Positions 1,480 through 26,214 of a DNA stretch of 64,000 nucleotides are shown here, one piece after another. The translations under genes were made by a program, and so were the position numbers. The notes below the pieces were generated by a model. That model did no database searches. It worked only from the letters and a program-made list of their open reading frames with translations, and was not told where the DNA came from. How positions within the stretch are numbered: position 1 is the stretch's first letter; each line of letters starts with the position of its first letter. The stretch spans positions 48,997,491 to 49,061,490 of the forward strand of contig CM065700.1 in assembly GCA_017654935.2 (NCBI GenBank), given 5' to 3'. Origin of the DNA: Phymorhynchus buccinoides. Lineage: Eukaryota > Mollusca > Gastropoda > Neogastropoda > Raphitomidae.

Positions 1480-1556
<77 letters not shown>

Positions 1557-6886: not shown

Positions 6887-6930
<44 letters not shown>

Positions 6931-7249
6931 CTGTAGTGTATGTCTCTCTGTCTCTGAGCTCTCTCTCTGTTTTCTCTGTCTGCACAGTTGTGCAGCTGTA
7001 GGACAGAAAAAGAAAGATAGTCAGAGAGACAGAGAGAGTGAGACATACGAAAGAGAGAGAGAGAGAGAGTCTGAAATGGAGACAGAGAAAGACAGTGAGA
7101 GACAGGGACATAGAGAGAGAGACAGACATACACACAGCGAAAGAGAGAGAGAGAGAGAGAGACAGAGACAAAGAAGGAGAGAGATACACACCGTCATACA
7201 GATCGAGAGAGATACAGACCTCTATCGAGAGACAGACACAAAGAGAGAA

Positions 7250-7286
<37 letters not shown>

Positions 7287-9906
7287 CTGACACAGAGGCA
7301 GAGAGAGAGAGAGAGAGAATTGAATTGAATTGAATGAATTTTATTTATAGAGGGTAATAGAATAAGCAATAACAATTAACATGCTTTTTTACATCCAGCG
7401 CTCTGAAAAAAACAAAGCAAAAAGTTGAAATGGAAAAGGAAAATGATTCTTTGGCCGGATATGTAAATAGGTAATGAAGTAAATGACTGATTTTGGCGTT
7501 TTTGGCGCGTTGTTAGACACATATACTTAGTTTTAGTTGGATTAATTAGCATATGGTTCAGTTCAGCCCATCGTTTCAACTGTTCTACATTTTCTTGGAC
7601 GTTTGATGACAAAACAGGTAAGGAATGATGAGAGAGAGAGAGAGAGAGAGACTCAGAGAGAGAGAGAGAGAGAATTAAAAGAGAGAGTGTGAGGGAAAAT
7701 AGCCTGAGTTTTATTTCCCACTAGAGGGTAAACAGCCACTGCCAAGCAAAAAAGTACTTATAAAGTATATTTGGATTGGATTACTCACACCCATACACTG
7801 ATACAGTATACATACACTCCCTCCCTCACTCCGATTGGGTACGATTGGGTATTCTTACCGACTGGAAGAAGAAGAAGCGTTGATGGGTAACTGCTAGTAA
7901 TACTAGTATGCCAATAATTGATGTTCTTCATTCTGACAGAGGATCACGGCTCACCTGCACGGGACAAAGGACATGCCCTATGTGACGGTTACTAGTGTTA
8001 GTGTTACTGTTAGTATAAAACATAAACTACATACCAATAACGATGTTCTTCATTCTGACAGAGTATCACGGCTCACCTGTACGGGAAAAAGGACACTCCC
8101 TATGTGACGGTTACTGTTAGTATAGACTACCTACCAATAACGATGTTCTTCATTCTGACAGAGGATCACGGCTCACCTGTACGGGACAAAGGACACTCCC
8201 TATGTGACGGTTACTGTTAGTGTTACTGTTAGTATCTATATTTATAGACTACCTACCAATAGTGATGTTCTTCATTCTGACAGAGGATCACGGCTCACCT
8301 GTACGGGAAAAAGGACACGCCCTATGTGATCAACCTGGACCCTGCTGTTCTGGAGGTGCCCTACCCTGCCAACATTGGTGAGGAATACAGGGCTTCCAAT
8401 CGTCCCGCAAAACAAGGGGTCCCAGGGACTCGTTCCCTTACAGTATAGAGGGTCCTAGACGCGGGATAGAGGGTCCCACTCCCAGTGGCATAGCAAATGC
8501 TAAAAATAATTTTTCTAGCGCATCCCTGGGACCCCCTGCACATTCTTTTAGAGAGTCCTTTAGAATTTTAGTACTTCATAGACCCCCAAATGGGGGTCCC
8601 TGGGAGCCCTGGGAATGGGATTTTATGCTACGTCTTGGCGACAGGAAAGGGAGATAATTTTTGGACTGACTTGGCCATGCCACCCAGTGACTAGTCAGGG
8701 ACAGATGATTTTCTGTTGGCTATATGCTACTAGTTCATGACAGGCAAGGGCAATAATCTTAAGTAGGTGGCGTTCACATCTTAGTGCACGAGACAAGGGC
8801 AGATAATGTTTAGTATAAAGCCTCATTAGTGTGTGTTTTGTGGGGGTCTGTGTGTGTGTTGTCTCTTTGGGGTGGATTAGGGTGGGGGGGTGGGGGGGCA
8901 TGGCACGTGTGGCTTGTGTGTGTTTGTGTCACTGTGTGTGTTTCTGTATATATGTGGGGGTGTGACCCAAGTAAACCAATCACGTGTGGCTTGTGTGTGT
9001 TTGTGTCACTGTGTGTGTTTCTGTATTATATATGTGGGGGTGTGACCCAAGTAAACCAATCATGTGTGGCTTGTGTGTGTTTGTGTCACTGTGTGTGTCT
9101 GTATATATGTGGGGGTGTGACCCAAGTAAGCCAATCATGTGTGGCTTGTGTGTGTTTGTGTCACTGTGTGTGTTTCTGTATATATGTGGGGGTGTGACCC
9201 AAGTAAACCAATCACGTGTGGCTTGTGTGTGTTTGTGTCACTGTGTGTGTTTCTGTATATATGTGGGGGTGTGACCCAAGTAAACCAATCACGTGTGGCT
9301 TGTTTGTGTCACTGTGTGTGTCTGTATATATGTGGGGGGGTGACCCAAGTAAACCAATCACGTGTGGCTTGTTTGTGTCACTGTGTGTGTCTGTATATAT
9401 GTGGGGGTGTGACCCAAGTAAACCAATCACGTGTGGCTTGTTTGTGTCACTGTGTGTGTTTCTGTATATATGTGGGGGTGTGACCCAAGTAAACCAATGG
9501 AGTAATGTTAAAGTTGATTTAAAAACTATTTTTCTGATAAATAATTATAAATATCATTATCATCAATCAGGTTTGATTAGAATGTCATGCGTTTTTCTGT
9601 CTTAGCAGCCTGACTGCTTTTCTTTTTTTTTATCTTTCTTTTTCTTTTTTTTCATTTCAGATATCAAGGACACAGTGAACTACAAAGAGGTCATGAAGCA
9701 GTATCCTTTTTTAGTTGTTAATCAATGACTGACATGTGGTTGCATTCGCTGGGATTCACCTCTTATTAATAATAATAATTGTACATTTATTATATAGCGC
9801 TTTACCTCAGATGAGCCCAAAGCGCTTTACAATCAATTTTTCATCAACAAATAGACAACAAATGTCAAGAATGACACCAACCAACAACAACGCATACATA
9901 CAAAGC

Positions 9907-10005
<99 letters not shown>

Positions 10006-10122
10006 ACACACATACACACACACACACGCACGGAATGACCACATACACCAACACATACAGAAACACACTCACACAACGTATACACGCTGATAGACAAACA
10101 CACAGACACACACACACACATG

Positions 10123-10153
<31 letters not shown>

Positions 10154-11501
10154 CACAAAGCACAGCACAAACCTGTGCACACGTGCACACAAGATAGACA
10201 ACTGATCAAATATTTAGGGTGCAGCAGGAAAAAGATGGGTTTTAAGAGAGGTTTTGAATGAGGAGACTGAGTTGGAGTGTCGGAGAGGAGAAGGCAGAGA
10301 ATTCCAAAGAGATGGTGCTTGACAGGAAAAAGAACGTTGGCCAGCAGATTTGAGACGGATGGAGGGAGGGGAGAGGAGACGAGAATCAGAAGACGAATGT
10401 AGTTGGCGAGCTGGGACATAGAGATGAAGGAGATCAGAGAGATATAAGTGAGCTTGATCATTCAGTGACTTGAAGGCAAGGAGGAGAATTTTGTAGTCAA
10501 TACGTGATTGAACTGGGAATCAATGTAGGGAACGAAGAACCGGAGTGATATGATCGTACCTAGGGGAGCGAGAAATGAGACGAGCAGCATTATTCTGGAC
10601 CCGTTGGAGCTTAGAGATGAGAGTTGATGGACAGCCAGCAAGAAGTGAGTTACAGTAGTCAAGGCGAGACAGAACAAAAGCACATACTAGAGTCTTCAGG
10701 GCATCTTGAGAGAGGAAACGGCGGATTGAACTAATTCTTCGAAGTTCTAGATAGCAAGACTTGCAAACATTGGAAGCATGTTGTTTGAAAGAGAGGGTTT
10801 GGTCCAAAGTAACACCTAGATTGCGGACAGATGCTGACAGCTTGATCTCAGTGCCATCAATGTTGACAGAACCTGGGAGAACCTGAGTTTTAATTGTGTA
10901 GTTAGAGGCTACAAGAATCATCTCTGTCTTTTCAGCATTTAGTTGCAGTTTGTTGCAAAACATCCATGTTTTAACAGCAGAGATGCACAACTTAGAAGAA
11001 GAAATCATTTGATCTAACTGACTCAGGTGGGCAGAAATGTACAGCTGATTGTCATCAGAAAAGCTATGATGTAGAATAGAATGCTGGTTGATGATGGCGG
11101 AGAGAGGTTGGGTATAAAGAACAAAAAGAATAGGGCCTAAGACTGAACCTTGGGGCACACCGAACTGAAGACCTTTTATTGCATTGATCCTTCCATTCCA
11201 GCCCCATCCCATCCAGCCTTGAACCCTCACCCCACTCCACAGGAAAGAAGGTAGCACAGTGGTTAAGACGCTCACCTGCCAATTCCAATGCTTGAGTGAC
11301 CCAGGTTCAAATCGGGGCCTTGCCCTTTCTTTCTAGTTCGACGGGAAAACCGAACTGAATGTTGAGTCCTTGGATGGGGACTTGAAGCTAGTCTCACACA
11401 TGCACTTTTCACACGGAAAAATACCACGGCAGTTGAAAGTCGGTAAGAGCAGGGAGAAATCCCGCTGCCTGGTAAAATTGATAGCTAGGTTTTCCAAGTC
11501 T

Positions 11502-11539
<38 letters not shown>

Positions 11540-14500
11540 TCCCTGCCTCACCCTGTCCCCCTCCCCCTGCAAAAAAAAGGGTGGCACTGCACTTGCAGCG
11601 ACGCACTCTCCAGGCGGGAATTATGTGACGGTGGCACTGCACTTGCAGCGACGCACTCTCCAGGCGGGAACTATGTGACGGTGGCACTGCACTTGCAGCG
11701 ACGCACTCTCCAGGCGGGAACTATGTGACGGTGGCACTGCGTGTGTATCCAAATGTATGCAGAATAAAATAGTCTTGTTACTGTCAAAGTAAAAAAACTT
11801 GTACAATGCAAGATCTCAAGCGTTTGTAAACTCCCCACGTATGCATGCACACATAGATACATGTATGCCTGTACTTATGTACACACACAGTGAAACACAC
11901 TAAAAAGCCTAAATGTTACAAAGAGTGATAACTTCGCAGCCTACAAACGTGGCAAAGAATGAAACCAACTAGTTCACAATGATCCCCAGCTGTAGTGTAG
12001 GTGAAAGGGTGGGAGTAAAACAAAACTGCTTCAGTCTACTGTGGAGTGCGAGCTCTTTGTATATTCAGGCTTTTTGAACACACACACACACACACACACA
12101 TCAAATGTTTGGAATGTTTAGTTCTTTATTTTTCGTTACATCTTTTTTTATGGATGGCTTGTTGGGGAAAAACCCCCATGTCATTTGCTTATGCAATGTT
12201 CCCATCTGGAAATAAAACTTTGACTTTGATCATGACTTGACACACACTTGGAAATAGTACAAACCCCCACATTAAGGACACGTTGCAAGTGGTTTCCTTA
12301 ACAATATTCAGGTACGGGTTGGGGCCTAACGGAGGAATTGTGACCTCCCTCAACCTGTTTGCCACACGATTTGACCAGGTAAGACTTGCATTAATCACTA
12401 ATATATTAATTTGGTCTTTTTAAGTTTGTCTCTTTTTTCTCTCTTTTTTATGTGTATCCGTCAGTCTGGATCATGTATTGTATTTAGGTTTGTTTTTTTG
12501 GGGTGTGGGTTTTTTATTATAATTTGTATATGTTTACTCTGTGTTAATAGAGAGTTATTGGCAATGGGTGTGGATGTATGTGGCTGTGATTTTTTTTCTA
12601 CTGAGAGAAAGAGAGTATATGCTTTGCACAGACATGTCTGTTTTGCAAACAAACTTAGAATTATCTGTTTCCTTTCTTTTTCTTTTTTCCCTTGACAAAT
12701 GTTTACCTTTTGTTTTAACAGTGTTAGTTCTGACGCACATATAATGTACTTCTATGACTCAGAACTGCCATCTGATGCAGTGTTCAACATTCAACATTCT
12801 TTAATCAGCCAATGCATCAGAGTACAAAGGAAATTGTTTTGGTTTTGCACAGGACACAATCTAACAACAAAAGCATGCACATGGATGGACAACCAATTAA
12901 AAAAAAAATTCAGGTTATATAATCATGTATCCCCCATCAGATTCTCTCTTACTCTCAGATACACACATACACATACACCAACACACATACACACCCCTCA
13001 CACAAACACACCTACACAAGACCGTGAACATGCAAGCACACCGATCGACCGACACATACCAAGTTTATCTGAGCAAAATAAGATAAAGACTTCCCCTAGG
13101 GGAGTGAGCCTACTGAGTATTGATGGCTCTGACAGCAGAGGGGTAAAATCTGTTCTTCGGACGGTTAGATAAATTGCACTTAAAAGAACAGAAACTTTTA
13201 CCAGAAGGGAGAGATTGAAACAGATGGTTGGCTGGGTGTGTGCTATCAATTAATTTTTTTTTATGATGGATCTATCTTTGCGTCTCATGTGCACACTTTG
13301 GATGCTATCTATAATCTAGGGTTAGTCTCAGACCCACCTCACTAAACCGTAAAGGTAGCAATGTTTCACCTGAGGCACAGGTTTATCTTTAAAAAGTTTT
13401 TAAAAGAGAGACCCCCTAAGTCCTAATTTGGGCGCTGATTTTGACCCCCCTGATTTGGGGCAGTGGGTGGATGTCTTGTGCCTTAATACAGGGAGCTGGA
13501 CGACCCCGACCCCACGAGTCTCTCTTTGACTCATGCATTTTTCCTTACTGTCATCTACGATCTTTCTGACCTATTGGCCCATTCTCCTGCTTTTTTTCAA
13601 CAACAAAAATGTCCAAATAACTTTTCTCCTTTGAGCTCCTCCGAAATCGAAATGTGTCGGCTGTACGCAGTGGGGAGACCAGTGAAAACTGAAACTGGAC
13701 ACACCATTATGGCCTTCTGGGAACGCAGAAGAAGAAGATCCCCTGATTTGGAAGATAGAATCAATGCTATGTTTGCTGCTTAATGAGGCTTTATACTGAA
13801 AATTATCTGCCCCTGTCTCATGCACTGAGATGCGAACGCCGCCTACTTAAGATTATTGCCCTTTGCGTGTCAGGAACTAGTAGTATACAGCCACAGAAAA
13901 TTATCTGCCCCTGACTAGTCACTAGGTGGCATGGTCAAGTCAGTCCGAAAATTATTGCCCTTTCGTGTCGCCAAGACGTAGTTTAAAGCCCCATTATGAA
14001 TGACTCTCATACTTCTTGTTGGTTGTTTTTTTACAGGTGATGTCTCTCATCGAGAAGAAAGCTTCAGAATGCAAGTAAGTTATAAATTTGGTATAAATCA
14101 CTACATATCACAGTACATTTTAGACACCAGTTTCTTTTGAAAACTTCTAAACAATACCCATTCATTTTGGTGTTTCTCTCTTCTTTTTTTCATTTTTTGT
14201 TCAAAAGCAAACTTCTCCAATGTTTTTTTGACATTTTGATCAGGATTGCTTCCAAAGCGTGTTTGTTTTTTACATTCCCCATCCTTTCAATGTCTGTTTG
14301 CTCGAAAGCGAAACAACTCAGAGGTTATAAACATATACTGCTCACAAAAAGTAGGGGGATGTTGACTTTGCAACATCACCATGGGTTCAATAACCAGACC
14401 ATAGGTTTCATTTCATGGGAAGATGATAGTTCAGCCTTTCTTGGCTGTAAAATCGAAGACAAAAATCAATGTTAAAATGCCACGTGACTGCCAGAGGCAA

Positions 14501-17500
14501 TAAACATTGGTGGGTGTGTTATTCAAAATCACAAAACACATTAAGTTGACAGATTGTTGGGCCACTGTTTGCTGCCAGGCATTCAAGGCAATGCTTTCTC
14601 ATGCTCTGGAACAGTCTCCTGAAGATTTCCTAGAGGATTAATGTTTTTTCCCAACCGTTACAATGGTGCAGGCTTAAATTGAAAAAGCGCCAGCGTTGGG
14701 CAGATTTTAACCTCCAAAATGACTGCGCGTCTCCACTGAGCACATTTTGTGCAAGATCACCTTCACATCCACGAAACCCAGACCATTTTCAATTAATTAT
14801 CCCACTATGCCTTGCAGGAAACTGGTCCAACACATTTTCAACTGTTCTATGACTATTGTTGTGACTTTTGGACATTGCACCCATTGATGTCCGTCTTCTC
14901 TGGCAATCACGTGACGTTTAAAAATTAATTTAGTCTTCCATTTTATGTTCAAGGAATAACATACTTTTGTTCTCAAATTGAATAGAACTTATAATTTGGT
15001 TGTTGAACCCATGGTGATCTCACAAAACTGAGAAGCAACATTGTGCTGTTCTCTGGAAACACATAGGGCTATGATTATTTTCATAAAACTAAAAGAAGCA
15101 CACTTTGAGATTGAGGGATGTAGACATGAAGGGTGTCTACAGTACAGCTTTGCCTAAATGTGGAGCTGGATTGTTTGATTCAATGTGGAGCTGGATTGTT
15201 TGATTCAATGTGGAGCTGGATTGTTTGATTCAATGTGGAGCTGGATTGTTTGATTCAATGTGGAGCTGGATTGTTTGATTCAATGTGGAGCTGGATTGTT
15301 TGATTCAATGTGGAGCTGGATTGTTTGATTCAATGTGGAGCTGGATTGTTTGATTCAATGTGGAGCTGGATTGTTTGATTCAATGTGGAGATGGATTGTT
15401 TGATTCAATGTGGAGCTGGATTGTTTGATTCAATGTGGAGCTGGATTGTTTGATTCAATGTGGAGCTGGATTGTTTGATTCAATGTGGAGCTGGATTGTT
15501 TGATTCAATGTGGAGCTGGATTGTTTGATTCAATGTGGAGCTGGATTGTTTGATTCAATGTGGAGCTGGATTGTTTGATTCAATGTGGAGCTGGATTGTT
15601 TGATTCAATGTGGAGCTGGATTGTTTGATTCAATGTGGAGCTGGATTGTTTGATTCAATGTGGAGCTGGATTGTTTGATTCAATGTGGAGCTGGATTGTT
15701 TGATTCAATGTGGAGCTGGATTGTTTGATTCAATGTGGAGCTGGATTGTTTGATTCAATGTGGAGCTGGATTGTTTGATTCAATGTGGAGCTGGATTGTT
15801 TGATTCAATGTGGAGCTGGATTGTTTGATTCAATGTGGAGCTGGATTGTTTGATTCAATGTGGAGCTGGATTGTTTGATTCAATGTGGAGCTGGATTGTT
15901 TGATTCAATGTTGCAAATCACATCTGCTTGGTTTGTTTCCATCTACTCTCTCCAGGAGTGTTCAGACATGATGAAATGTGTGGTAAACATTTACAAGACG
16001 GAATGTGCCGATATGCATGTGTGTGGACTCCGGGTATCCAGTGATGTCCCGAGGCCCCGGTCATAGGCCATTGACCTATTCAAATTTAAAATGTCATATT
16101 GTGTTCTCCCGTCATGACAAATGTCTGGTTAAATTTTTAACACTGGCGCGCTTTGTCTTATTGATTTCTGCAAGAGCCAGGACGTTGTCCTATTGAATTC
16201 TCTCGTCTCAGGACAGTTTGTCCTGTCACTTTTCGATCCTCGGTGCATCACTGACTGTATGTAAGTGCTTTGAATTTTGGAGGGTAAAAAAATGTTTTTA
16301 TGAGTTTGGTCAGCGTTTCAGCTGGACAAAGGATTTTATAATGAACTGAAGATTTTCTCGATTTAACAATGGTGTTGTTTTTGTTTCTTCATGTTTATAA
16401 AATACGTTTTTACTCTTGTTTTCTAATAATCCTTGTTATTGAATGTTTTATCTCCCCAACTATCTCCTGTCTACTTTAACCCATTTTGTGCATTGTCTGC
16501 CTGCACAAATCAGCATTTTGTTTTAAGGTCAATTGTTTTTATGATTAATTTTCCAACTTGTAGCACGCTAGGAAGTTTTACAATTCAGTCCATGGTTGGG
16601 TGTATGAGATAAAGAATGAATAAAATTCGTAATATATACGTTTTTAAAGCGGGCGTTTGGGTGTTTTCCTTGTGTGTTATTGAATATTGATGTGTGACAC
16701 AGACACATTATACTGGACACACCGGGACAGATAGAGGTGTTCACCTGGTCAGCTTATTGAATATTGATGTGTGACACAGACACATTATACTGGACACACC
16801 GGGACAGATAGAGGTGTTCACCTGGTCAGCTTATTGAATATTCATGTGTGACACAGACACATTATACTGGACACACCGGGACAGATAGAGGTGTTCACCT
16901 GGTCAGCTTATTGAATATTCATGTGTGACACAGACACATTATACTGGACACACCGGGTCAGATAGAGGTGTTCACCTGGTCAGCTTATTGAATATTGATG
17001 TGTGACACAGACACATTATACTGGACACACCGGATCAGATAGAGGTGTTCACCTGGTCAGCTTATTGAATATTGATGTGTGACACAGACACATTATACTG
17101 GACACACCGGGACAGATAGAGGTGTTCACCTGGTCAGCTTATTGAATATTGATGTGTGATACAGACACATTATACTGGACACACCGGATCAGATAGAGGT
17201 GTTCACCTGGTCAGCTTATTGAATATTGATGTGTGACACAGACACATTATACTGGACACACCGGATCAGATAGAGGTGTTCACCTGGTCAGCTTATTGAA
17301 TATTGATGTGTGACACAGACACATTATACTGGACACACCGGATCAGATAGAGGTGTTCACCTGGTCAGCTTATTGAATATTGATGTGTGACACAGACACA
17401 TTATACTGGACACACCGGATCAGATAGAGGTGTTCACCTGGTCAGCTTATTGAATATTGATGTGTGACACAGACACATTATACTGGACACACCGGATCAG

Positions 17501-18730: not shown

Positions 18731-18788
<58 letters not shown>

Positions 18789-21700
18789 AGAGAGCAATTT
18801 TGAACTAATTATATCCTAACATTCTCCCTTTCTGTTGTGGATGTTGTTTAGCATTTTAGTTCTTTTCTAATTTCAAGCCTTGTTGTCACTCATGATTGTC
18901 CATCATTTTATTTTAGTTTTGTATACAGTGGAACCTCCCTTATAAGACTTTCAAAAATGAGGTCTTATAAGGGAGGGGTCTTATAAGGGAGGTAATTTTA
19001 ATACTTACAGAGAAGGGCAATGTCTCAGAGAAGTAGGTCTTATGTGGGAGGGAGTCTTATAATGGGAGGTCTTATAAGGGAGGTTCCACTGTATAACTGT
19101 TGGTTGGGGTTTTGGGGTGTGTTTTTTGCTCACAGGCTTCATCGGTGCCAACGGTGGTGGTTTACATCATGGACACGTCACGCAGCGTGAACCCTGTGAC
19201 CTTTATGTCCAACATGCTGTACGCCTGTAGTATTCTGTACAAGACCAAACTGCCTTTCCTCATCGCTATGAACAAGGTCATAATATCAGTAATATTGATC
19301 ATAATAACATGCTGTAGTATATTGTTCAAGACCAAACTGCCTTTCCTCATCGCTATGAACAAGGTAATAATATCAGTAATATTGATCGTAATAACATGCT
19401 GTAGTATATTGTACAAGACCAAACTGCCTTTCCTCATCGCTATGAACGAGGTAATAATATCAGTAATATTGATCATAATAACATGCTGTAGTTCTGTACA
19501 AGACCTTTCCTCATCGCTATGAACAAGGTAATAATATCAGTAATATTGATCATAATAACATGCTGTAGTATATTGTACAAGACCAAACTGCCTTTCCTCA
19601 TCGCTATGAACAAGGTAATAATATCAGTAATATTGATCATAATAACATGCTGTAGTATTATGTACAAGACCAAACTGCCTTTCCTCATCGCTATGAACAA
19701 GGTAATAATATCAGTAATATTGATCATAATAACATGCTGTAGTATATTGTACAAGACCAAACTGCCTTTCCTCATCGCTATGAACAAGGTAATAATATCA
19801 GTAATATTGATCGTAATAACATGCTGTAGTATTCTGTACAAGACCAAACTGCCTTTCCTACTCGCTATGAACAAGGTAATAATATCAGTAATATTGATCA
19901 TAATAACATGCTGTAGTATATTGTACAAGACCAAACTGCTTTTCCTCATCGCTATGAACAAGGTAATAATATCAGTAATATTGATCATAATAACATGCTG
20001 TAGTATTATGTACAAGACCAAACTGCCTTTCCTCATTGTTATGAACAAGGTAATAATATCAGTAATATTGATCGTAATAACATGCTGTAGTATTCTGTAC
20101 AAGACCAAACTGCCTTTCCTCATCGCTATGAACAAGCTGTATTTGTACATACTCCATATCAACAATATATAAAATCCATGATAATAATAATAATAATCCC
20201 CCCATGTTTTCGCCTTGATCCTTTAAAATTTAAAACTGGGAGAAAAAACCATTAAAATCGTAAACAGAGAAAAAGAAATCAGAAACCCTGATACCGTTAG
20301 AAGATTTACATTGTGTGCTTTCAGCATCCTAAATTGCGTTATGCTCTTATTTTTTGTTTTTATTATACAAATTTTTGTTGTGATTCTTTTTTTTCTTCTC
20401 TTTTCAGATTGACATAGTCAGCCACAGTTTTGCGGTGGAGTGGATGCGCGACTTTGAGTCGTTCCAGGAGGCCTTGGAACACGAGACGTCTTACGTGTCC
20501 AACCTGACGCGAAGCATGAGTCTGGTGCTGGATGAATTCTACACACATTTGAGGGTAAATCTCTCTGCTGTGTGGCCTTTCCTAGCTCTGTTTGTCTTTC
20601 TTTGATTGCCTGTCTTTCTCTCAGTCTCTTTTTGTCTCTCTATATGACTCTCTCTCTCTCATTCTCTCTCTCTCAGTATGTCCATTTTTGTCCGTCTTCT
20701 CATCGTCTCTCTCACTAAATTTATGATTGTAGCGTCACGGCAAAAGCGACAAAATATAACGAGTAGTATTCCCCCAATATATATTCGCAGTAATACTGTA
20801 GAAGAAGTCAACACACACAAAGTTTTAAGGATTACTGTTTTCCAGTGTGTCGGTGTGTGTGTACTCTCACTATTTGTTGTTTTACAGTGTGTCGGTGTGT
20901 GTGTACTCTCACTATTTGTTGTTTTCCAGTGTGTCGGTGTGTCTGCAGTCACAGGGGAGGGCATTGAGGAGTTTTTCCAGAAAGTGGACGAGGCAGCAGA
21001 GGAGTATGAGAAGTGAGAATTCACACACACACACCACACACACACACACACAGGCACACACACACACACACACGCACATACTCACGCACACACATACACA
21101 CTCTCACCACACATGCGCATGCACGCACACACATGCACGCACATACACACACACATGCACGCGCACACACACAAACACACACGCACGCACACACACAAAC
21201 ACACGCACATGCACACAAAACGTAGATTGCATTTTGTTATGGTAATTGGTATGCTTGCAATGGATTTATCTGATTTCTCCTTCTTTGTAAGTGTAACGTT
21301 GCTTTCATCTAAAAAAAAAAAAGCAAAAGCTCCATAACAATGTTTATAGCAATATTCTTGCAAAAGGATTTACCAACACATCTTGACTGAAGCCATTGTT
21401 GTTATATTTTTTCGACAGAGAATACCGCCCGATGTATGAGAAACTGAAGGCAGAGAAAGAGGCAGCGGCGCGCCAGGAGCAAGAGCAGCACATGTCTCGC
21501 CTTCACAGCGATTTAGCGGCGGGAGGCAGCAAGGCTGCGTCGGCCTCCTCTGCACAGGGTGGGTGGTTGTCTGCGGCGAGAGGCTGCGCCTTTGTCTTTG
21601 TTAGTTAACTCTTTCTAGTCGTTCCGGCCATATATGTCCGGAATTAATAGATAGCTGTCAGTTTCATGCATTTGCTTCAAGGGAAGTAAATCTGTATGCA

Positions 21701-24700
21701 CACCATACCTTGGTCACTTCTAAACTCGCTTCGCTCCCTTTAGACCACAATTTTGCCTCTGACTGCTTTTGTAGTTTGTTGTGGGGAAACCAATCAGTGT
21801 AGAGAGTTTTTCTATATAAAGTCTATGTATAAAATAATCTGATCTACCACTTCCCTATGTCAGTGTAGAGAGTTTTTCTATATAAAGTCTATGTATAAAA
21901 TAATCTGATCTACCACTTCCCTATGTCTAAACCTGAAGTAAAAACCCGTAATCTTCTTTAATTTCTCCTTTTGTTTATGTCTGTTTTGTTTGTGTGTATG
22001 GCTGGAGTGATTAGTGAGTTTTTTTAATAATTCAAAATCGTTCTGATGCGAATGAGTTAAGTTGTGTCTCTTCACATAGTTACTTTTTTTAAAACAGTTT
22101 GTTCGTAATGGATTATAGGGAGGCGCCGTGGTGTAGTTGGTTAGAGTCGGCGCTCGTAATCCAACGCGTTTGCTAGTGCGCTGGTTCGAACCCAGAACCG
22201 TTGGCGGTGTTGCGTCCTTGGGAAAGATACTTTACTCTTATTTTCCTGGTCCTTGGGATGAGACCTTAAACTGAGGTCCTGTGTGCGAACGCACGCTCAA
22301 GATCTTGTGCACACGTTACTTAAAGCCCATTCCACTATTCTATAGGAGTAGGCCGTGTTGTGCCGGTGGGATGGATGACATGAACTCAGCATGCAAAAAT
22401 GGGTGGCGCTGTACTAGAGCGACGCGCTCTCCTGGTGGGAGCATCCCAAATTTCACAGAGACGAGTTTCTGTGACTGGAAAATACCAACAACAACAAATC
22501 TGAGTAAGGGCTGCAGTATTCTGCAAAGAATGTTTTTTCAATTTTGAATTTAGCAGGAGTGGAGTCCCCTATAGAGGCTATGCATTTTGTGTGTGTGTGT
22601 GCGTATACCCTGATATTTGTAAGTAAAGACTTAAACATATCTAAATTTTTCTTGGCACATTTAGGAAACAAATCAAGAGAAAGAAACAATAAATTTACTG
22701 GCAATAAAATCATCATGTCTAGCAAAGCAGTCTGTATTAACAAAGGATCTCTCAAAAAAATATTTTTGTTCCGTTTCTCGTCAAACAGGCTTGGCCTACA
22801 GCCAGCCAGACAGCATCTATTTGCGCGCAGCTGTTGGCGATGATGACGATGATGATGACGACGACGAAGGCTTGCGGAGAGCAGCAAATAGTGATGGTGA
22901 GGAAAAGACAGAGAAAGAGGCAGTCTGTGTGAAACAGAGTTCCCACAATCTGTTAACACTTGTAACCCCGATTAAAATGATGACTCTACTCCCTGTAACC
23001 ACCAAATTAATGTTGGTAAACTAGGCCTGAAATGGGGTACTTTGTTTAAAAAAATATTAAAAAATAACTACTTGATGGATTGATTTCAAATGTTCAGGGT
23101 TTGTGTATAAATGAAGAATGTTTAACTTGCAATGTTTTTTGTGTTATGTGATATTTTTTATATTGCCATTTTAACTCCAAAATACATAACGAAGTGGGTG
23201 TAGAGGGGCGGTTTTAGACGGCTTGGTAGGAGAAAGTAATGGATGTCATGGGCGGAATCAGGCTATAAGGGGCTTAAAAAGTTTAACCCCTTCACTGCCA
23301 GAGGAAAAGACAGAGACAGAGGCAGTCTGTGTGAAACAGAGTTCCCACAATCTGTTTAACCCCTTCACTGCCAGAGGAAAACAAATTATCGATTTTTTTC
23401 ATTATGAAATTTAAAAGAGATCTGCTACCATGTTAGAATCATTCTGAGAAAATGGTCTGGAGATATACATGTGCCTTTCCTGACTTTTCTAACCCCAAAC
23501 CATCATTCCAGAGCTATGATGTGAAACGTTATGACATCATCAATGACATCACACATCCCATAGTAAACACAGGATGGGCAGGGAAGAGGGTAAAAGGTGT
23601 TTCTTTCTTTTTTCAAAAAAGTTGGACACCACTTTTCCAAAGTCCATGGGTGAAAACTACACAAAATGAACAATTCTGAAAGGCCGGGGTCCAGGGGTAA
23701 TGTCCCCCTGCGGCTGAAGAAAAACCAATTGATTTATGAAGGCATTTTAGTTTGCTTTTTCCACAATTTATACAAATGCTTATTTTAAAGTGTTTGAAAA
23801 ATACAGTAGACACACACAGATCTTGTTTGATAACATTTTGTTAAAAGGGAACTTCGTTTTCTGGTACAATTCACAAGCAGGAAATCCTCGTATAGCAGGA
23901 AACGTTGCACCCATGCAAGTCCTGGAACACGTGGGTTGATAAATTGGGCTATTTTGCTCGCTTGTTCAAATTTTTAATTTTATATCTGCTTTGCATGTGT
24001 GTGTTTGGCCTTTGAATGACCAAATGACCCCGTGGGGATACCGGCGGTCTTTTGCATAAATAGTTCTCCCACCTTCTGGAAGTTCTGTGCTTGTAACTTC
24101 CTCTAATCTGTCACTTTCTTTGACTCTGCCTTTTCCCTTTGCTTACTGTCATCTACTATCTTTCTGCCTTACCGGTCCATTCTCCTGCCTTTTTTCAAGA
24201 AACACTTTCAAAAAGATTTCCTCAAGCCGAAGTCGGACATGCTGGGTCTAATTATTTCTTACTTAGGTGCATAATGGCAGCATGACGCATCTGCACTCAT
24301 AATTGACAGGAAACTGTCTGAGCGATCAAAGAAGAAGAGTGACCAAATGATTTATTAATTTTTTTCACTTTTTTTTGGGGGGGAGGTGAGGGTGTATGTG
24401 TTTACTGTTCTTGATTTTGTTGTTGCGGTTATTTTTTTATAAAAAAATGTTGGTTTTTCTTTATTGTTTTATTTTATTAATGCTGCTTAAAGCTGTCATT
24501 CATTGTGATTGTGAGACATGAAACGGACTATTCCTGTTCAGAAATTAATTTTTCACAGCAAGTTTAGCGCTTTGACAGGAAAGTCTCTAATTTATCAGTA
24601 ATCATTTTCATTACTTAAGGCTCCTGGAGGGGATACCGGGGGTCTTTTGTATAAATAGTTGCCCCACCTTCTGGAAGTTATGTGCTTGTAACTTCCTCTA

Positions 24701-25123
24701 ATCTGCCACTCTCTTTGACTGCCTTTTCTGTTTGCTTTCTGTCATCTACCATCTTTCTGCCTTGCTGGTCCATTCTCCTGCCTTTTTTCCTGACCATGGT
24801 CCAAATGATTTTCTCCTTTGAGCTACTCCAAAATTGGACAGCGGGGAGACCAGTAAAAACTGAAAACCAGACACACACGTACCTTACTCATTTTGGCCAT
24901 ATGGCCTGGAAACGCTGAAGAATTACTTAAGGAATTTTAGACCCTCAGCTGAACAGAAAAAAGACAAAACTCTCATTTCTCTCAAGTCAGATTGTTCTCA
25001 TTGTATGATTTTTTTCTTTTTCCAGACGAAGATCCAAGGGAGGCAGAGTCGTTCAGTCGTTATCTGAAAGAGCATCGGCACCGACAGCAAGAGAAGATGA
25101 AAAAGATGCAGCCACCCTCCTGA
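810..25123 (+). CDS. GPN1: GPN-loop GTPase 1, 12 coding exons
   Basis: Exons 810-1001, 8284-8377, 9661-9700, 12312-12378, 14037-14074, 17550-17628, 19136-19276, 20408-20554, 20930-21012, 21419-21558, 22789-22896 and 25026-25123 join in frame to 1227 nt (408 residues; human about 374). Motifs in order: Walker [10 protein letters not shown] (residues 53-61), NLDPA (81-85), the GPN loop Gly113-Pro114-Asn115 that defines the family, DTPGQ (G3, 149-153), NKID (G4, 216-219) and VSA (G5), then an acidic run (358-367) and a basic C-terminus. GPN1 (XAB1; yeast Npa3) pairs with GPN3 and is needed for assembly and nuclear import of RNA polymerase II; it is mainly cytoplasmic. The first 44 residues, with a run of seven alanines, extend beyond the human N-terminus. 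All introns are GT-AG. Exons 2, 6, 7 and 9 have tandem partial copies of their splice-site ends in the flanking introns. Exon boundaries are inferred by homology and splice phase. Confidence 0.93.
1020..1150 (-). mobile_element. SINE-like 3' part with poly-G/C run
   Basis: Matches, in reverse orientation, the interval about 11470-11560: both share a segment reading TTGATAGCTAG followed by AAGTCTTCCC and a long C run (here a G run at about 1051-1071). It lies just downstream of the exon 1 donor in intron 1. Confidence 0.5.
1472..1558. repeat. (AC)n microsatellite
   Basis: An almost pure AC/TG run of about 80 bp in intron 1, followed by C-rich and pyrimidine-rich sequence to about 1930. The open frames across it are low-complexity artefacts. 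Confidence 0.95.
1944..3225 (+). mobile_element. Unclassified interspersed element, longest copy
   Basis: Begins GTAGGTATTCCAAAG and ends near GCGCGTGACGTCA. Two shorter copies occur in reverse orientation at about 6290-6891 and about 40165-41765; all share the outer parts, including CCGTCGGCACCCCCCGGCAC. This copy is about 1.28 kb and the other two lack most of its AT-rich left half. No transposase or RT is recognisable and no terminal inverted repeat was found. It lies in GPN1 intron 1. Confidence 0.65.
3226..4073. other. Intron 1 stretch, nothing recognised
   Basis: Moderately AT-rich sequence. A minus-strand open stretch at 3380-3450 has an acceptor-like left edge but no recognisable protein similarity. 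No repeat family shared with the rest of the window was seen. Confidence 0.3.
4074..4227. mobile_element. MITE, CAGGCATGGGAATTGTC termini, copy 1
   Basis: About 154 bp with inverted ends GCAGGCATGGGAATTGTC and GACAATTCCCATGCCTGC. A second copy is at 37563-37721. The CAGG ends suggest a hAT-type element. This copy sits inside a (GA)n run, so its target duplication cannot be read safely. Internal poly-C and AT-rich core. Confidence 0.8.
4360..5293. mobile_element. piggyBac-like non-autonomous element with ORF remnant
   Basis: TTAA flanks both ends (4360-4363 and 5290-5293), with inverted ends CTCTCTTGTGC and GCACAAGAGGG, matching piggyBac target choice and end type. Inside are two related blocks (about 4570-4790 and 4790-4980), each with a degenerate ATGGATGACGA-type start followed by an acidic short frame, like the N-terminus of piggyBac transposases. 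No catalytic domain is present, so it is an internally deleted relic. Confidence 0.65.
5294..6289. other. Intron 1 stretch, nothing recognised
   Basis: AT-rich sequence with a short (GT)n run near 5344 and several AGGCCTAG motifs. No gene, RNA or repeat family could be assigned. Confidence 0.3.
6290..6891 (-). mobile_element. Unclassified interspersed element, short copy
   Basis: Reverse-orientation copy of the element at 1944-3225, with the AT-rich interior deleted. Its terminal GGAATACCTAC directly abuts a (TG)n microsatellite, just as the 1944 copy abuts a pyrimidine repeat. Confidence 0.65.
6892..7316. repeat. (TG)n and (GA)n-rich low-complexity tract
   Basis: A (GT)n run at 6892-6928, then about 390 bp of purine-rich GAGA repeats on the plus strand. 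Open frames of up to 193 codons on both strands are Ser/Leu or Arg/Glu repeats made by the microsatellite, not genes. Confidence 0.9.
7317..7615 (-). mobile_element. 5'-truncated LINE with pentanucleotide tail
   Basis: The minus-strand frame includes [20 protein letters not shown], the RT block seen as W...N.M.INP.KTK in Jockey/CR1 LINEs. The 3' end (low coordinates) is a short TTCAA-type repeat (7317-7336 on the plus strand: GAATT repeats), a typical LINE tail. Most of the element is missing. Confidence 0.65.
7625..7690. repeat. (GA)n microsatellite
   Basis: Two GA runs next to the LINE fragment in GPN1 intron 1. Confidence 0.9.
7915..8283 (+). repeat. Three decoy copies of the exon 2 acceptor end
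   Basis: The segment GATGTTCTTCATTCTGACAG followed by the first 46 nt of exon 2 (through CCCTATGTGA) occurs three extra times before the real exon. Decoy exon starts are at 7940, 8062 and 8162; the real one is 8284. Spacings are 122, 100 and 122 bp, not multiples of three. Each decoy leaves the exon sequence at the same point, then continues with CGGTTACT spacer. Decoy 2 has AGT for the first AGG codon. Confidence 0.9.
8284..8377 (+). CDS. GPN1: GPN1 exon 2
   Basis: Acceptor CTGACAG|AGG, donor ATTG|GTGAGG; phase 0 in, phase 1 out. Codes residues 65-95 plus the first base of Asp96, including the family signature VINLDPA and the conserved PYPANI. It is the last and only complete member of a four-copy tandem set of its own 5' end. 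A hAT-type MITE starts only 11 bp past the donor. Confidence 0.93.
8388..8611. mobile_element. hAT-type MITE, copy 1
   Basis: About 224 bp with ends CAGGGCTTCC and GGGAGCCCTG. Related copies are at 31049-31266 (8-bp target duplication) and, reversed, at about 58821-59049. It is inserted within 11 bp of the GPN1 exon 2 donor. Confidence 0.8.
8620..8828 (+). mobile_element. MITE with TAATGRGGCTTTA ends, copy 1
   Basis: About 200 bp, matching 13781-13996 in reverse orientation over nearly its full length (shared AGGGCAATAATCTTAAGTAGG and GACTTGGCCATGCCACC). The better preserved copy shows inverted ends TAATGAGGCTTTA and TAAAGCCCCATTA, suggesting a TA target. The left end here is degenerate. Confidence 0.7.
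8829..9498. repeat. Minisatellite, about 73-78 bp, 8 copies
   Basis: Repeats of GTGTGGCTTGTGTG ... GTGACCCAAGTAAACCAATC in GPN1 intron 2. Units differ by a 4-bp loss in the GT tract. Open frames over it are artefacts of the repeat. Confidence 0.95.
9661..9700 (+). CDS. GPN1: GPN1 exon 3
   Basis: Acceptor TTTCATTTCAG|AT, donor AAGCA|GTATCC; phase 1 in, phase 2 out. It completes Asp96 and codes [12 protein letters not shown], matching the conserved NIDIRDTVKYKEVMKQ block of GPN1 proteins. Confidence 0.92.
9764..11180 (-). mobile_element. 5'-truncated L2/CR1-like LINE
   Basis: On the minus strand it starts at the RT motif [13 protein letters not shown], continues through SFSDDNQLY (the catalytic YxDD box, first position altered), [17 protein letters not shown] and a C-terminal [11 protein letters not shown] block, then a 3'UTR with (CT)n and (CA)n runs and an ATT-repeat tail at 9764-9780. 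The frame breaks near 10520. A relative in the same orientation runs off the right end of the window. It sits in GPN1 intron 3. Confidence 0.85.
9907..10152. repeat. (CT)n and (CA)n microsatellites inside the LINE 3'UTR
   Basis: A pure CT run of about 95 bp (9910-10004) followed by CA-rich runs. The related LINE at 62684-64000 has the same order at the same place, so these tracts probably travel with or grow from the element. Confidence 0.9.
11225..11580 (+). mobile_element. tRNA-related SINE with C-run
   Basis: Contains an A-box-like TAGCACAGTGGTTAAGAC and a B-box-like GGTTCAAATC about 50 bp downstream, the spacing of an internal Pol III promoter. The body ends in a C run of about 35 bp (11504-11537). 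The tail shares sequence with 1020-1150. Confidence 0.6.
11581..11740. repeat. 50-bp tandem repeat, 3 copies plus
   Basis: GTGGCACTGCACTTGCAGCG ... TATGTGACG repeats starting at 11581, 11631 and 11681. The unit resembles the tail of the SINE near 22400 (GCGCTGTACTAGAGCGACGCG), so it looks like an amplified SINE tail. Confidence 0.9.
11741..12311. other. Intron 3 remainder
   Basis: AT-rich intron sequence with short CA runs near 12078. No gene or repeat family recognised. The right edge is the exon 4 acceptor AACAATATTCAG. Confidence 0.4.
12312..12378 (+). CDS. GPN1: GPN1 exon 4, carries the GPN loop
   Basis: Phase 2 in, phase 0 out; donor CAG|GTAAGA. Codes [20 protein letters not shown] then DQ, with the diagnostic Gly-Pro-Asn at residues 113-115, which in the family reaches into the partner active site. 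Confidence 0.94.
12379..13500. other. Intron 4 part, low-complexity and unassigned
   Basis: T-rich then CA-rich sequence (12955-13020). A block near 13080-13250 (CCCTAGGGGAGTGAGCC) looks like an old repeat but has no second copy in the window. No gene seen. Confidence 0.4.
13500..13778 (+). repeat. Interspersed repeat family T, partial copy
   Basis: Shares long blocks with 24045-24240, 24625-24925 and 60350-60610, including GTCATCTACGATCTTTCTG and TTCTCCTTTGAGCTCCTCCG. The family ends near a GCAGAAGAAGAAG-like sequence. Class unknown; no terminal inverted repeat was noted. Confidence 0.65.
13781..13996 (-). mobile_element. MITE with TAATGRGGCTTTA ends, copy 2
   Basis: Inverted ends TAATGAGGCTTTA and TAAAGCCCCATTA are visible at both sides. 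Reverse-orientation partner of 8620-8828. It ends about 40 bp before exon 5. Confidence 0.75.
14037..14074 (+). CDS. GPN1: GPN1 exon 5
   Basis: Acceptor TTTTTTTACAG|GTG, donor GCAA|GTAAGT; phase 0 in, phase 2 out. It is a 38-nt microexon-sized exon coding [12 protein letters not shown], matching the helix before the G3 strand (human VMKFIEKAQNMS). Confidence 0.88.
14335..15060. mobile_element. Possible degenerate inverted-repeat element
   Basis: CACCATGGGTTCAATAACCA (near 14377) is found inverted as TGGTTGTTGAACCCATGGTG (near 14998). The outer parts are only loosely related. If real, it is an old DNA element of about 0.7 kb in intron 5. Ends are uncertain. Confidence 0.4.
15157..15910. repeat. 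25-bp minisatellite, about 30 near-identical copies
   Basis: AATGTGGAGCTGGATTGTTTGATTC repeated over 754 bp with one visible substitution (GAGATGG for GAGCTGG near 15390). Such uniformity suggests recent expansion or strong homogenisation. Located in GPN1 intron 5, 0.77 kb before the exon 6 decoy array. Confidence 0.97.
15911..16676. other. Intron 5 remainder
   Basis: AT-rich sequence between two satellites. No gene or repeat family was recognised. Confidence 0.4.
16677..17549 (+). repeat. Eleven decoy copies of the exon 6 acceptor end
   Basis: Exact 77-bp period. Each unit holds 24 nt of intron ending in GTGTGACACAG and the first 53 nt of exon 6 ([17 protein letters not shown]). Decoy exon starts run from 16703 in steps of 77; the twelfth start, 17550, is the real exon. 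After TCAGCT every decoy reads TATTGA, an in-frame stop, where the real exon reads TCAGGC. Six of the 11 decoys have GGA changed to GAT, turning the catalytic DTPGQ into DTPDQ. Confidence 0.95.
17550..17628 (+). CDS. GPN1: GPN1 exon 6, carries the G3 motif
   Basis: Acceptor GTGTGACACAG|A, donor CACTG|GTCAGT; phase 2 in, phase 0 out. Codes [17 protein letters not shown] then [14 protein letters not shown] is the switch II/G3 motif (residues 149-153). The acceptor lacks a good pyrimidine tract. Only this last member of the 12-copy array continues past TCAGCTT into exon sequence and a donor. Confidence 0.92.
17717..17953. mobile_element. piggyBac-type MITE, copy 1
   Basis: Inverted ends CCCTTTCGCCGCCA and TGGCGGCGAAAGGG with TTAA on the right and TTAG on the left. 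Relatives at 27588-27828 and, as a left-end fragment, near 26535. Direct repeats of about 27 bp (GGTGAAGCGCTATATAAAT...) lie on both sides. Confidence 0.8.
18000..18925. other. Intron 6 part with microsatellites
   Basis: Contains (TTC)n at about 18247-18272, a (GT)n run near 18451 and a (GA)n run at 18735-18795. No gene recognised; the open frames here are low-complexity. Confidence 0.5.
18926..19091. mobile_element. pogo/Tigger-like MITE, copy 1
   Basis: Ends CAGTGGAACCTCCCTTATAA and its inverse, flanked by TA on both sides (18924-18925 and 19092-19093). The core is made of repeated GGTCTTATAAGGGAGG. A second copy is at 53667-53840. It ends 44 bp before GPN1 exon 7. Confidence 0.88.
19136..19276 (+). 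CDS. GPN1: GPN1 exon 7
   Basis: Acceptor TTTTTTGCTCACAG|GCT; phase 0 at both ends. Codes residues 171-217, including [20 protein letters not shown], and ends in Asn-Lys, the first half of the G4 motif NKxD. The first donor, AAG|GTCATA (19277), is taken as the normal one. It looks no stronger than the copies downstream, which read GTAATA, so longer forms are possible. Confidence 0.88.
19277..20137 (+). repeat. Ten further copies of the exon 7 donor end
   Basis: An 87-bp unit repeats the last part of exon 7 ([16 protein letters not shown]) plus 27-30 nt of intron. Donor GTs are at 19277, 19364, 19451, 19528, 19615, 19702, 19789, 19876, 19963 and 20050. The eleventh copy reads AACAAGCTG and has no GT. 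The step is 87 bp, except 77 bp between the third and fourth. The third copy has GAG for the final AAG. The frame stays open through copy 3, then stops at 19520. Confidence 0.95.
20138..20407. other. Intron 7 remainder
   Basis: AT-rich sequence with a short ATA repeat near 20180 and a strong pyrimidine tract before the exon 8 acceptor TTCTCTTTTCAG. Confidence 0.6.
20408..20554 (+). CDS. GPN1: GPN1 exon 8
   Basis: Phase 0 at both ends; donor AGG|GTAAAT. Codes [20 protein letters not shown] and on to [14 protein letters not shown] (residues 218-266). Its first two residues, Ile-Asp, complete the G4 motif NKID begun in exon 7. Confidence 0.94.
20695..20836 (+). pseudogene. LINE reverse transcriptase fragment in intron 8
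   Basis: The frame reads [14 protein letters not shown] and then [20 protein letters not shown], the RT thumb region seen in CR1/Jockey LINEs (KTK..v.T.RQK ... VNTHKVLGI). It ends directly at the first tandem acceptor of exon 9 and stays open into it. Confidence 0.7.
20837..20929 (+). repeat. Tandem acceptors of exon 9 (42-bp unit)
   Basis: The exon start TGTGTCGGTGTGT behind TTTTCCAG or TTTTACAG occurs at 20846, 20888 and 20930, exactly 42 bp apart. The spacing is 14 codons and no stop lies between, so use of either upstream acceptor would add 14 or 28 residues in frame ([14 protein letters not shown] or [14 protein letters not shown] type). Confidence 0.93.
20930..21012 (+). CDS. GPN1: GPN1 exon 9
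   Basis: Acceptor GTTTTCCAG|TGT, donor GAGAA|GTGAGA; phase 0 in, phase 2 out. Codes [20 protein letters not shown] and on; Val-Ser-Ala is the G5 motif. The third and last of three tandem acceptors is chosen because it gives the length seen in human GPN1 (RVVGVSAV). Confidence 0.88.
21018..21222. repeat. (CA)n-rich microsatellite
   Basis: About 200 bp of interrupted CACACA/CACGCA directly after the exon 9 donor in intron 9. Confidence 0.95.
21419..21558 (+). CDS. GPN1: GPN1 exon 10
   Basis: Acceptor TTTTTTCGACAG|A, donor CAGG|GTGGGT; phase 2 in, phase 1 out. Codes [20 protein letters not shown] and on to SASSAQ, the charged helix after the GTPase domain (human EYRPEYERLKKS). Confidence 0.9.
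21605..22060. mobile_element. TTAA-flanked MITE, copy 1
   Basis: Bounded by TTAACTC and GAATGAGTTAA, with a second, shorter copy at 36033-36366. TTAA at both ends points to piggyBac-type insertion. A 66-bp segment (AGTGTAGAGAGTTTTTCTAT...) is tandemly duplicated here at 21796-21926 and is single in the other copy. Confidence 0.75.
22119..22500 (+). mobile_element. tRNA-derived SINE
   Basis: A box TGGTGTAGTTGG (22129-22140) and perfect B box GGTTCGAACCC (22183-22193) are placed as in a tRNA gene, followed by a body of about 300 bp ending in a CAACAACAAC-like tail. Reversed fragments of the family appear near 56880-56985 and 57235-57425. Transcribed by Pol III by family knowledge. Confidence 0.85.
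22789..22896 (+). CDS. GPN1: GPN1 exon 11
   Basis: Acceptor CGTCAAACAG|GC, donor GATG|GTGAGG; phase 1 in, phase 1 out. Codes [16 protein letters not shown], then nine aspartates and a glutamate, then GLRRAANSD. The acidic run matches the acidic C-terminal region of GPN1 proteins. The GAT/GAC tract may vary in length. Confidence 0.88.
22897..23400. repeat. Intron 11 start and its duplicated segment
   Basis: The 55 bp just after the exon 11 donor (GAGGAAAAGACAGAGAAAGA ... CACAATCTGTT) recurs at 23303-23358. There it lies between two copies of TTTAACCCCTTCACTGCCAG (23282 and 23358), as if copied into a tandem duplication. Confidence 0.8.
23401..24040. other. Intron 11 part, nothing recognised
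   Basis: AT-rich sequence with no second copy in the window and no gene signal. Confidence 0.4.
24041..24345 (+). repeat. Interspersed repeat family T, second copy
   Basis: Begins CCCCGTGGGGATACCGG and continues TTCTGGAAGTTCTGTGCTTG; parallels 24625-24925 and 60350-60610. It ends near GAAGAAGAG. Confidence 0.7.
24622..24925 (+). repeat. Interspersed repeat family T, third copy
   Basis: Same start (GGGGATACCGGGGGTCTTTT) and body, the most complete right half, ending in CTGGAAACGCTGAAGAA. Two copies lie 0.3 kb apart in intron 11. Confidence 0.7.
25026..25123 (+). CDS. GPN1: GPN1 exon 12 and stop codon
   Basis: Acceptor TTTTTCTTTTTCCAG|AC; phase 1 in. Codes [20 protein letters not shown] and [11 protein letters not shown], then TGA at 25121-25123. 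The pattern of an aromatic helix followed by a basic tail parallels the human C-terminus (FQNFMQESMAQYWKRNNK). Confidence 0.9.
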
Positions 25124-25337
25124 GAGAGAGAGGGAGTGTAATGCAGGGGTGCATGTGGGTGTGCCTGAAGCCTGAATTCAGGCAGTTTGATGCAGGTTCA
25201 GACAGCACTTTGCCTGAAGAAAAGCCTCTTCTATGGACTTGTGCTGTTGAGGTAGCAGCTGTATCAAGGGTTATGATGGAAGGTTCAGGCAAAAGCTTGG
25301 GTCACCGCATGCACCCATGGTAGTGTGTGTGTGTGTA

Positions 25338-26120
25338 AGAGAGTGTGAAACCAGAGACCCAGTGGAAGAGAGAGAGAGTGTGAAACGAGAGACCAAGTGG
25401 AAGAGAGAGAGAGTGTGAAACGAGAGACCAAGTGGAAGAGAGAGTGTGAAACGAGACCAAGTGGAAGAGAGAGAGGGTGTGAAACGAGAGACCCAGTGGA
25501 AGAGAGAGAGAGTGTGAAACGAGAGACCAAGTGGAAGAGAGAGTGTGAAACGAGACCAAGTGGAAGAGAGAGAGAGTGTGAAACCAGAGACCCAGTGGAA
25601 GAGAGAGAGAGTGTGAAACGAGAGACCCAGTGGAAGAGAGAGAGAGTGTGAAACGAGAGACCAAGTGGAAGAGAGAGTGTGAAACGAGACCAAGTGGAAG
25701 AGAGAGAGAGTGTGAAACGAGAGACCAAGTGGAAGAGAGAGAGAGTGTGAAATGAGAGACCCAGTGGAAGAGAGAGAGTGTGAAAGAGACCAAGTGGAAG
25801 AGAGAGAGTGTGAAATGAGAGACCCAGTGGAAGAGAGAGAGAGTGTGAAATGAGAGAAGTGGAAGAGAGAGAGAGTGTGAAATGAGAGACCCAGTGGAAG
25901 AGAGAGAGAGTGTGAAACGAGACCAAGTGGAAGAGAGAGAGAGTGTGAAACGAGAGACCCAGTGGAAGAGAGAGAGAGTGTGAAATGAGAGACCAAGTGG
26001 AAGAGAGAGAGAGTGTGAAATGAGAGACCCAGTGGAAGAGAGAGAGAGTGTGAAATGAGAGACCAAGTGGAAGAGAGAGAGAGTGTGAAATGAGAGACCA
26101 AGTGGAAGAGAGAGAGAGTG
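25338..26120. repeat. 35-bp satellite in the GPN1 3'UTR, about 22 copies
   Basis: Unit GAGTGTGAAACGAGAGACCA plus AGTGGAAGAGAGAGA, with subtypes differing by CCA/CAA, ACGAG/ATGAG and short GA deletions. It follows the stop codon by about 215 bp. Frames of up to 299 codons on the opposite strand are produced by the repeat. Confidence 0.95.
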
Positions 26121-26136
26121 AGAAACAGAGATAGAA

Positions 26137-26214
26137 AGACAGTCGTTTAGAGATTTTGTGAAAGAGCATCGCTTCAGACAACAAATAATGAAGAGAAACC
26201 AGCCTTTCTACTGA
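26137..26214 (+). pseudogene. Diverged second copy of the GPN1 terminal exon end
   Basis: TCG TTT AGA GAT TTT GTG AAA GAG CAT aligns codon by codon with exon 12 ([10 protein letters not shown]) and ends in its own TGA at 26212-26214 followed by the same GAGAGAGAGA. It is about 1.09 kb downstream of the true stop. There is no pyrimidine tract before it, and splicing exon 11 onto 26143 would hit a stop at once, so it is read as untranslated. Confidence 0.8.

Follow-up and report, generated by a model that had tools for sequence, protein, structure and literature searches.

GPN1 and its junction-crossing arrays

We analysed a 64,000-nucleotide stretch of the genome of the gastropod Phymorhynchus buccinoides (GenBank assembly GCA_017654935.2, contig CM065700.1, positions 48,997,491 to 49,061,490 of the forward strand; hereafter the window), which carries the gene for GPN1, an essential factor for the assembly and import of RNA polymerase II. 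The GPN1 coding region, modelled from homology and splice consensus, comprises 12 exons on the plus strand between positions 810 and 25123 and amounts to 1227 nt, i.e. 408 codons without an internal stop. The 408-aa product contains the full PF03029 domain (E 2.2e-83); it matches GPN1 from the snail Babylonia areolata at 77% identity over 100% of its length and that from Littorina saxatilis at 73%. Four splice junctions of this gene lie inside minisatellite arrays, in each of which the repeat unit consists of both intron and exon sequence. The copy joined to the rest of its exon is referred to here as attached, and the remaining, free copies as decoys.

810..25123, plus strand: GPN1 coding span, with exons at 810-1001, 8284-8377, 9661-9700, 12312-12378, 14037-14074, 17550-17628, 19136-19276, 20408-20554, 20930-21012, 21419-21558, 22789-22896 and 25026-25123
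7911..8329, plus strand: array over the exon 2 acceptor, with four acceptor ends at 7940, 8062, 8162 and 8284
8284..8377, plus strand: exon 2 with the attached copy; its first 46 bp belong to the array
16677..17602, plus strand: tandem array at the exon 6 acceptor; the 77-bp unit occurs 12 times, at 16703 + 77n, the last at 17550
17550..17628, plus strand: exon 6 with the attached copy, which carries DTPGQ
19136..19276, plus strand: exon 7 with the attached donor copy; its last 52 bp belong to the array
19225..20136, plus strand: tandem array at the exon 7 donor; the 87-bp unit occurs 11 times, with donor copies from 19277 to 20137
20836..20942, plus strand: array over the exon 9 acceptor, three acceptor ends at 20846, 20888 and 20930, 42-bp unit
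20930..21012, plus strand: exon 9 with the attached copy; its first 13 bp belong to the array

The unit lengths differ between exons 2, 6, 7 and 9 (about 111, 77, 87 and 42 bp, respectively); at exon 2 the spacings are 122, 100 and 122 bp, and the last copy continues into the exon. The splice dinucleotides are largely kept, with AG present in all acceptor decoys (3/3 at exon 2, 11/11 at exon 6 and 2/2 at exon 9) and GT in nine of the ten donor decoys of exon 7. In that array GT is found in 10 of the 11 copies, copy 4 is shortened, and copy 11 is followed by CT. A search independent of repeat finders, in which the 32-mer over each of the 22 junctions was sought within 2 kb on either side with at most 7 mismatches, recovered additional copies at four junctions (three for the exon 2 acceptor, 11 for the exon 6 acceptor, nine for the exon 7 donor and two for the exon 9 acceptor), and no second copy within these limits at the other 18. 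Both analyses bear out the original prediction as to the places of the four arrays and their copy numbers (four at exon 2, 12 at exon 6, 11 at exon 7 with GT in 10, and three at exon 9).

At 4/22 junctions, then, the authentic splice site lies inside a tandem unit, which is the defining feature of a splice-site-bearing variable number tandem repeat (VNTR) of the ABCA7/IFI6 type. Tandem exon duplication and mutually exclusive exons were considered and rejected: of the nine arrays compared with the gene model (see below) none touches two junctions and none holds an internal exon. It had also been observed that in every array one copy only is attached to its exon. This is correct, and it is a geometric necessity and no evidence for a process, because a unit crossing one junction contains part of an exon and only the copy at the edge of the array can adjoin the rest of it.

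Intron 3 (9701-12311) looks like a U12-type GT-AG intron by its motifs, which we take to be characteristic of this class, with the donor GTATCCTTTT and the branch-like TTTCCTTAAC near the acceptor. This appearance probably explains the low score of its donor (-6.5).

Splice-signal strength of attached copies and decoys

If the attached copies were recognized by virtue of better local signals, these should stand out from the decoys, and at three of the four junctions they do not. The acceptor contexts of the attached and decoy copies of exons 2 and 6 are almost identical, apart from the first copy at exon 6, whose flank differs. The three acceptors of exon 9 vary in pyrimidine content, which is highest in the attached one (0.79 vs 0.74 and 0.63). 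At exon 7 the difference runs in the opposite direction: the attached donor AAG/gtcata (the slash marks the junction) scores -1.3 bits, below all nine GT decoys (eight at 2.8 and one at 1.9), according to a donor frequency table. Judged by sequence, local strength thus fails to mark the attached copy at three junctions, and the proposal that the decoys are tolerated through strong recognition of the joined exon finds no backing in the local signals of exons 2, 6 and 7; these signals were the only ones compared. As they do not single out the attached copy, its use, if it is used, would have to be decided by exon context or by the order of synthesis.

Predicted effect of decoy splicing

Reading frames were computed for splicing at each decoy. 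All three decoy acceptors of exon 2 lead to a premature stop, and all 11 of exon 6 to a stop after 162 aa; in both cases the stop lies more than 55 nt upstream of the last junction. It follows that any production of GPN1 requires some transcripts to be spliced at the attached copies of these two exons. At exon 7, copies 2 and 3 of the donor remain in frame and add 29 and 58 aa, respectively, while the remaining seven of the nine GT decoys give a premature stop, because copy 4 is shortened and the frame is lost. Both decoys of exon 9 are in frame (+28 and +14 aa). A few extended proteins are thus possible via the exon 7 and exon 9 decoys, and use of the decoys would mostly end in nonsense-mediated decay.

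In-frame read-through as a designed feature was considered and rejected, since 3 divides the periods 87 and 42 evenly but neither 77 nor the exon 2 spacings of 122 and 100, and copy 4 disrupts the frame at exon 7. Inspection by eye of the exon 6 unit, the only one so treated, revealed a donor-like CTG/GTCAGC lying 32 nt before the next AG, a distance too short for a usual intron, and a 45-nt pseudo-exon whose splicing to the attached copy would create TGA.

Divergence and turnover among the copies

The copies differ by substitutions, and some of them by insertions or deletions. The DTPGQ motif encoded by the attached copy of exon 6 is invariant in this GPN1 and the nine homologues aligned with it, and six of the 11 decoys of exon 6 encode DTPDQ (G to D). 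Amino-acid changes occur likewise in the exon-derived part of all three exon 2 decoys and of six of the nine full-length exon 7 decoys. Purifying selection on the decoys as coding sequence is unsupported, and we do not view them as retained coding sequence, because so many carry such changes. Within the exon 6 array copies 5, 8, 9, 10 and 11 share one sequence, and copy 12, the attached one, is the same as copy 3 but not as its neighbour; this is the pattern that repeat turnover would produce.

Among 120 homologues listed, four contain an internal repeated 7-mer. In one of them, the predicted GPN1 of the mussel Mytilus edulis, a stretch of 49 residues at the exon 7 donor occurs twice (VYCMDTS...FIVVMNK), which may reflect a duplicated exon 7.

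Array density and random placement

Arrays were defined as those reported by Tandem Repeats Finder with a period of at least 20, shorter-period repeats being left out. Their density in GPN1 (17.0% of bases, 4.1 per 10 kb) equals that in the window beyond the gene (25124-64000: 17.6%, 4.1 per 10 kb). The gene contains 10 such arrays; our first placements used nine of them (the intronic array 1210-1247 was left out) and were repeated with all 10, with little change. Of the nine, four cross exactly one junction, five touch none and, as mentioned, none touches two.

Placing the arrays at random in their grown form gave 3.57 junctions within arrays, compared with the four seen (P 0.50; with 10 arrays 3.59, P 0.50), and 2.04 arrays touching a junction, also against four (P 0.09; with 10 arrays 2.05, P 0.10). 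Arrays touching exactly one junction were rarer in these placements (0.71 expected vs 4, P 0.003; with 10 arrays 0.73, P 0.004). Second copies of 32-mers are found at 19% of the gene positions sampled (436 of 2296) and at 18% of the junctions (four of 22), i.e. without excess at junctions.

Relation to known systems

Several single-junction arrangements of this kind have been described and are compared with GPN1 here. The VNTR in intron 18 of human ABCA7 has a 25-bp unit that begins at the exon 18 donor GT and is present in about 12 to 427 copies; the first donor is the canonical one, the donor one unit downstream is sometimes used, with a frameshift as the result, and the length of the VNTR correlates with skipping of exon 19 and not with use of the extra donor (PMC5954066). 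It resembles the GPN1 arrays in that tandem units carry the authentic donor, and differs from them in that it involves one junction and a donor only, has a unit without exon sequence, is polymorphic and is linked to disease. The minisatellite of human IFI6 (G1P3) has a unit that is reportedly 12 bp long. It offers multiple splice donors, and two downstream repeat units are used (PMC4526556 citing Turri 1995). Here several minisatellite copies of a donor stand at one exon end, as in GPN1; unlike GPN1, the case concerns one junction and a donor only, and usage has been demonstrated in humans.

In the potato RdRp gene a tandem duplication across an intron-exon boundary made a new intron, with RNA-seq reads over the new boundary (PMC4974935). 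The duplicated segment crosses an acceptor junction and two acceptors result, which is the likeness to GPN1; the differences are that there are two copies only and that a new intron was created. The GPN1 arrays share with such intron gains the property that the repeated segment spans an intron-exon boundary. As noted in a study of human tandem repeats (PMC2812944), variable repeats located where exon and intron meet may give rise to novel introns. The polyubiquitin gene UBC contains tandem dual-specific splice sites, with a usable site in each unit and a stochastic choice among them (PMC10809524); its array is coding and its sites act as donor or acceptor, whereas each GPN1 array repeats one kind of junction.

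The statement in the original prediction that no described gene has this pattern does not hold for single junctions, as ABCA7, IFI6 and potato RdRp attest; a gene with four such junction arrays was not found in the open-licence literature searched. What distinguishes GPN1 from these precedents is that a single gene has four junction arrays, of which three are at acceptors.

Other features of the window

26137..26214, plus strand: diverged duplicate of the GPN1 terminal exon end, downstream of a 35-bp array (25338-26131)
33520-34636, minus strand: 51-bp x 22 array, with a unit resembling an acceptor (CTAATC...TTACACACAG/ATCTACGTC)
37915-39333, minus strand: F-box open reading frame (ORF), PF12937

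The original prediction also mentions a further copy for the terminal exon. The copy exists, and its peptide alignment score was reached by none of 2000 shuffles, but it stands apart from any tandem array, about 1.1 kb downstream, and its divergence is such that the DNA matches over 13 bases at best. From its sequence we classify it as a dispersed duplicate outside any junction array. It has an open frame (ERQSFRDFVKEHRFRQQIMKRNQPFY, then a stop); an alternative last exon and a relic are both conceivable.

The last copy of the 51-bp array runs into a short open frame, IYVCDARISRLTHWISDQCSTKM, and the resemblance of its unit to an acceptor makes it possible that this is a fifth junction array, in another gene. 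The 24-aa end of the frame has no Pfam match and the 103-aa ORF matches two families weakly, at E 0.47 and 1.5, which is below their cut-offs; there is one weak match in the PDB (E 1.3), and the protein search returned none. The F-box ORF was considered as a second-gene control and rejected: the adjoining array (53-bp x 2.6, 37784-37919) starts at its stop codon and not at a recognized splice site, and a protein search with 37915-39240 gave no homologue at E 0.001. Farther along the minus strand (45272-47617) there is a 781-codon open frame that by eye resembles the reverse transcriptase of a long interspersed nuclear element.

Origin of the arrays and alternative explanations

In our opinion the arrays are probably ordinary minisatellites, which arose from tandem duplications across one junction, were tolerated by virtue of one intact copy and were expanded later. 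The tandem duplication of a short segment (~40-120 bp) would happen to span one exon-intron junction, leaving a single complete exon, its splice site intact, and, when the transcript is spliced at the attached copy, an unchanged message. Such a duplication would be tolerated because this intact copy remains attached; duplications that lie within a coding exon or take in an entire one would alter the protein and would tend to be lost. The arrays would then grow and turn over through unequal exchange or slippage, with the free copies drifting while selection on the protein holds the attached copy, which we suppose to be the main site used. The equal density of arrays within and beyond the gene, the fact that none of the nine arrays touches two junctions, the stops produced by all decoys of exons 2 and 6, the retention of DTPGQ, the amino-acid changes in decoys, the signs of turnover and the single-junction precedents all count in favour of this scenario.

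Several observations weigh against it. When unexpanded units rather than grown arrays are placed at random, only 0.54-0.58 one-junction crossings are expected against the four observed, with P 0.0011-0.0016 (nine arrays: 0.54, P 0.0011; 10 arrays: 0.56, P 0.0014), a P value that is post hoc in that it concerns a single gene selected for showing the pattern; with a minimum of 10 bp on each side of the junction, the expectation drops to ~0.40 (P 0.0003-0.0004). We prefer this null model because it matches how arrays are born, and accordingly read a several-fold (~7-fold) excess in GPN1. The exon 7 decoys vary at nine of 52 exon-derived sites and at one of 35 intron-derived sites (Fisher P 0.045; the exon part was counted over the nine full-length decoys, the shortened copy 4 being left out, and the intron part over the nine GT decoys; in the counts for exon 6, copy 1 was left out of the intron part), a contrast that neutral drift does not predict. 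Finally, the weak attached donor of exon 7 fits poorly with simple use of the attached copy. Given the unit-level null in particular, we are not fully comfortable with chance and tolerance as a full account.

A less likely explanation is that splicing is leaky or tunable, i.e. that the decoys are truly used and the array length is a VNTR dial that sets the dose of GPN1 via unproductive or extended transcripts. The nearly identical signals would permit it, as the exon 2 and 6 acceptors differ little and all nine GT decoys of exon 7 outscore the attached donor, and so would the normal size of the decoy exons (e.g. 156 nt for the nearest decoy of exon 6). Human ABCA7 offers a precedent in the occasional use of the next-unit donor and the correlation of VNTR length with exon 19 skipping, but only the latter changes with length, next-donor use being independent of it. 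Among the nine aligned homologues an insertion at the exon 7 site occurs in the mussel protein alone, and this case is ambiguous; the rarity of internal repeats among the listed homologues (4/120) also speaks against extended products, although annotated proteins would hide unproductive transcripts.

It is more doubtful still that splice junctions themselves seed tandem duplications in this lineage, through their sequence, R-loops or co-transcriptional splicing. The shared process suggested in the original prediction is possible to the extent that four one-junction arrays exceed the unit-level expectation (P about 0.001), but it was this pattern that led to the choice of the gene, and neither the junctions within grown arrays nor the positions with a second copy show an excess. 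If all genes were like GPN1, chance would produce four such junctions in 6-32 (simulation) or 15-115 (Poisson tails) of 20,000 genes. Moreover, the unit lengths differ, with no common motif apparent by eye, and five of the nine arrays touch no junction. Luck and a bias towards junctions are not separable from one gene.

An assembly artefact, with repeats collapsed or over-expanded, is very improbable: the substitutions, insertions and deletions that distinguish copies and the intact surrounding gene argue against it, as does the extent of the arrays (at most 926 bp), which is short relative to long reads. Masking of the free splice sites by folding of the units into RNA structure has least to commend it, for although two of the z-scores of five folded stretches (one or two per array, partial arrays) are slightly negative (-0.51, 0.63, 1.27, -0.38 and 1.64), none of the stretches is clearly more stable than its shuffles, 62 to 191 of 200 of which folded at least equally well.

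Implications for splice-site choice

The ordinary-minisatellite origin favoured here may also be replaced by a joint reading, which we regard as speculative and unlikely: duplications would seed preferentially at junctions in a minisatellite-rich snail lineage and give rise to several decoy arrays per gene, exon context would prevail over site strength, and array length would tune the unproductive share of transcripts. Exon 7 provides its sharpest test, because nine downstream copies there outscore the attached donor, and the nearest two of them would add 29 or 58 residues in frame.

GPN1 of P. buccinoides constitutes a natural experiment in splice-site choice, with up to 12 near-identical acceptors or 10 GT donors at a junction, and at exons 2 and 6 a single copy that gives the full protein. 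If the attached copy is chosen despite equal or weaker local signals, then exon context decides. Loci of this kind in repeat-rich genomes may furthermore be raw material for new introns and alternative exons.

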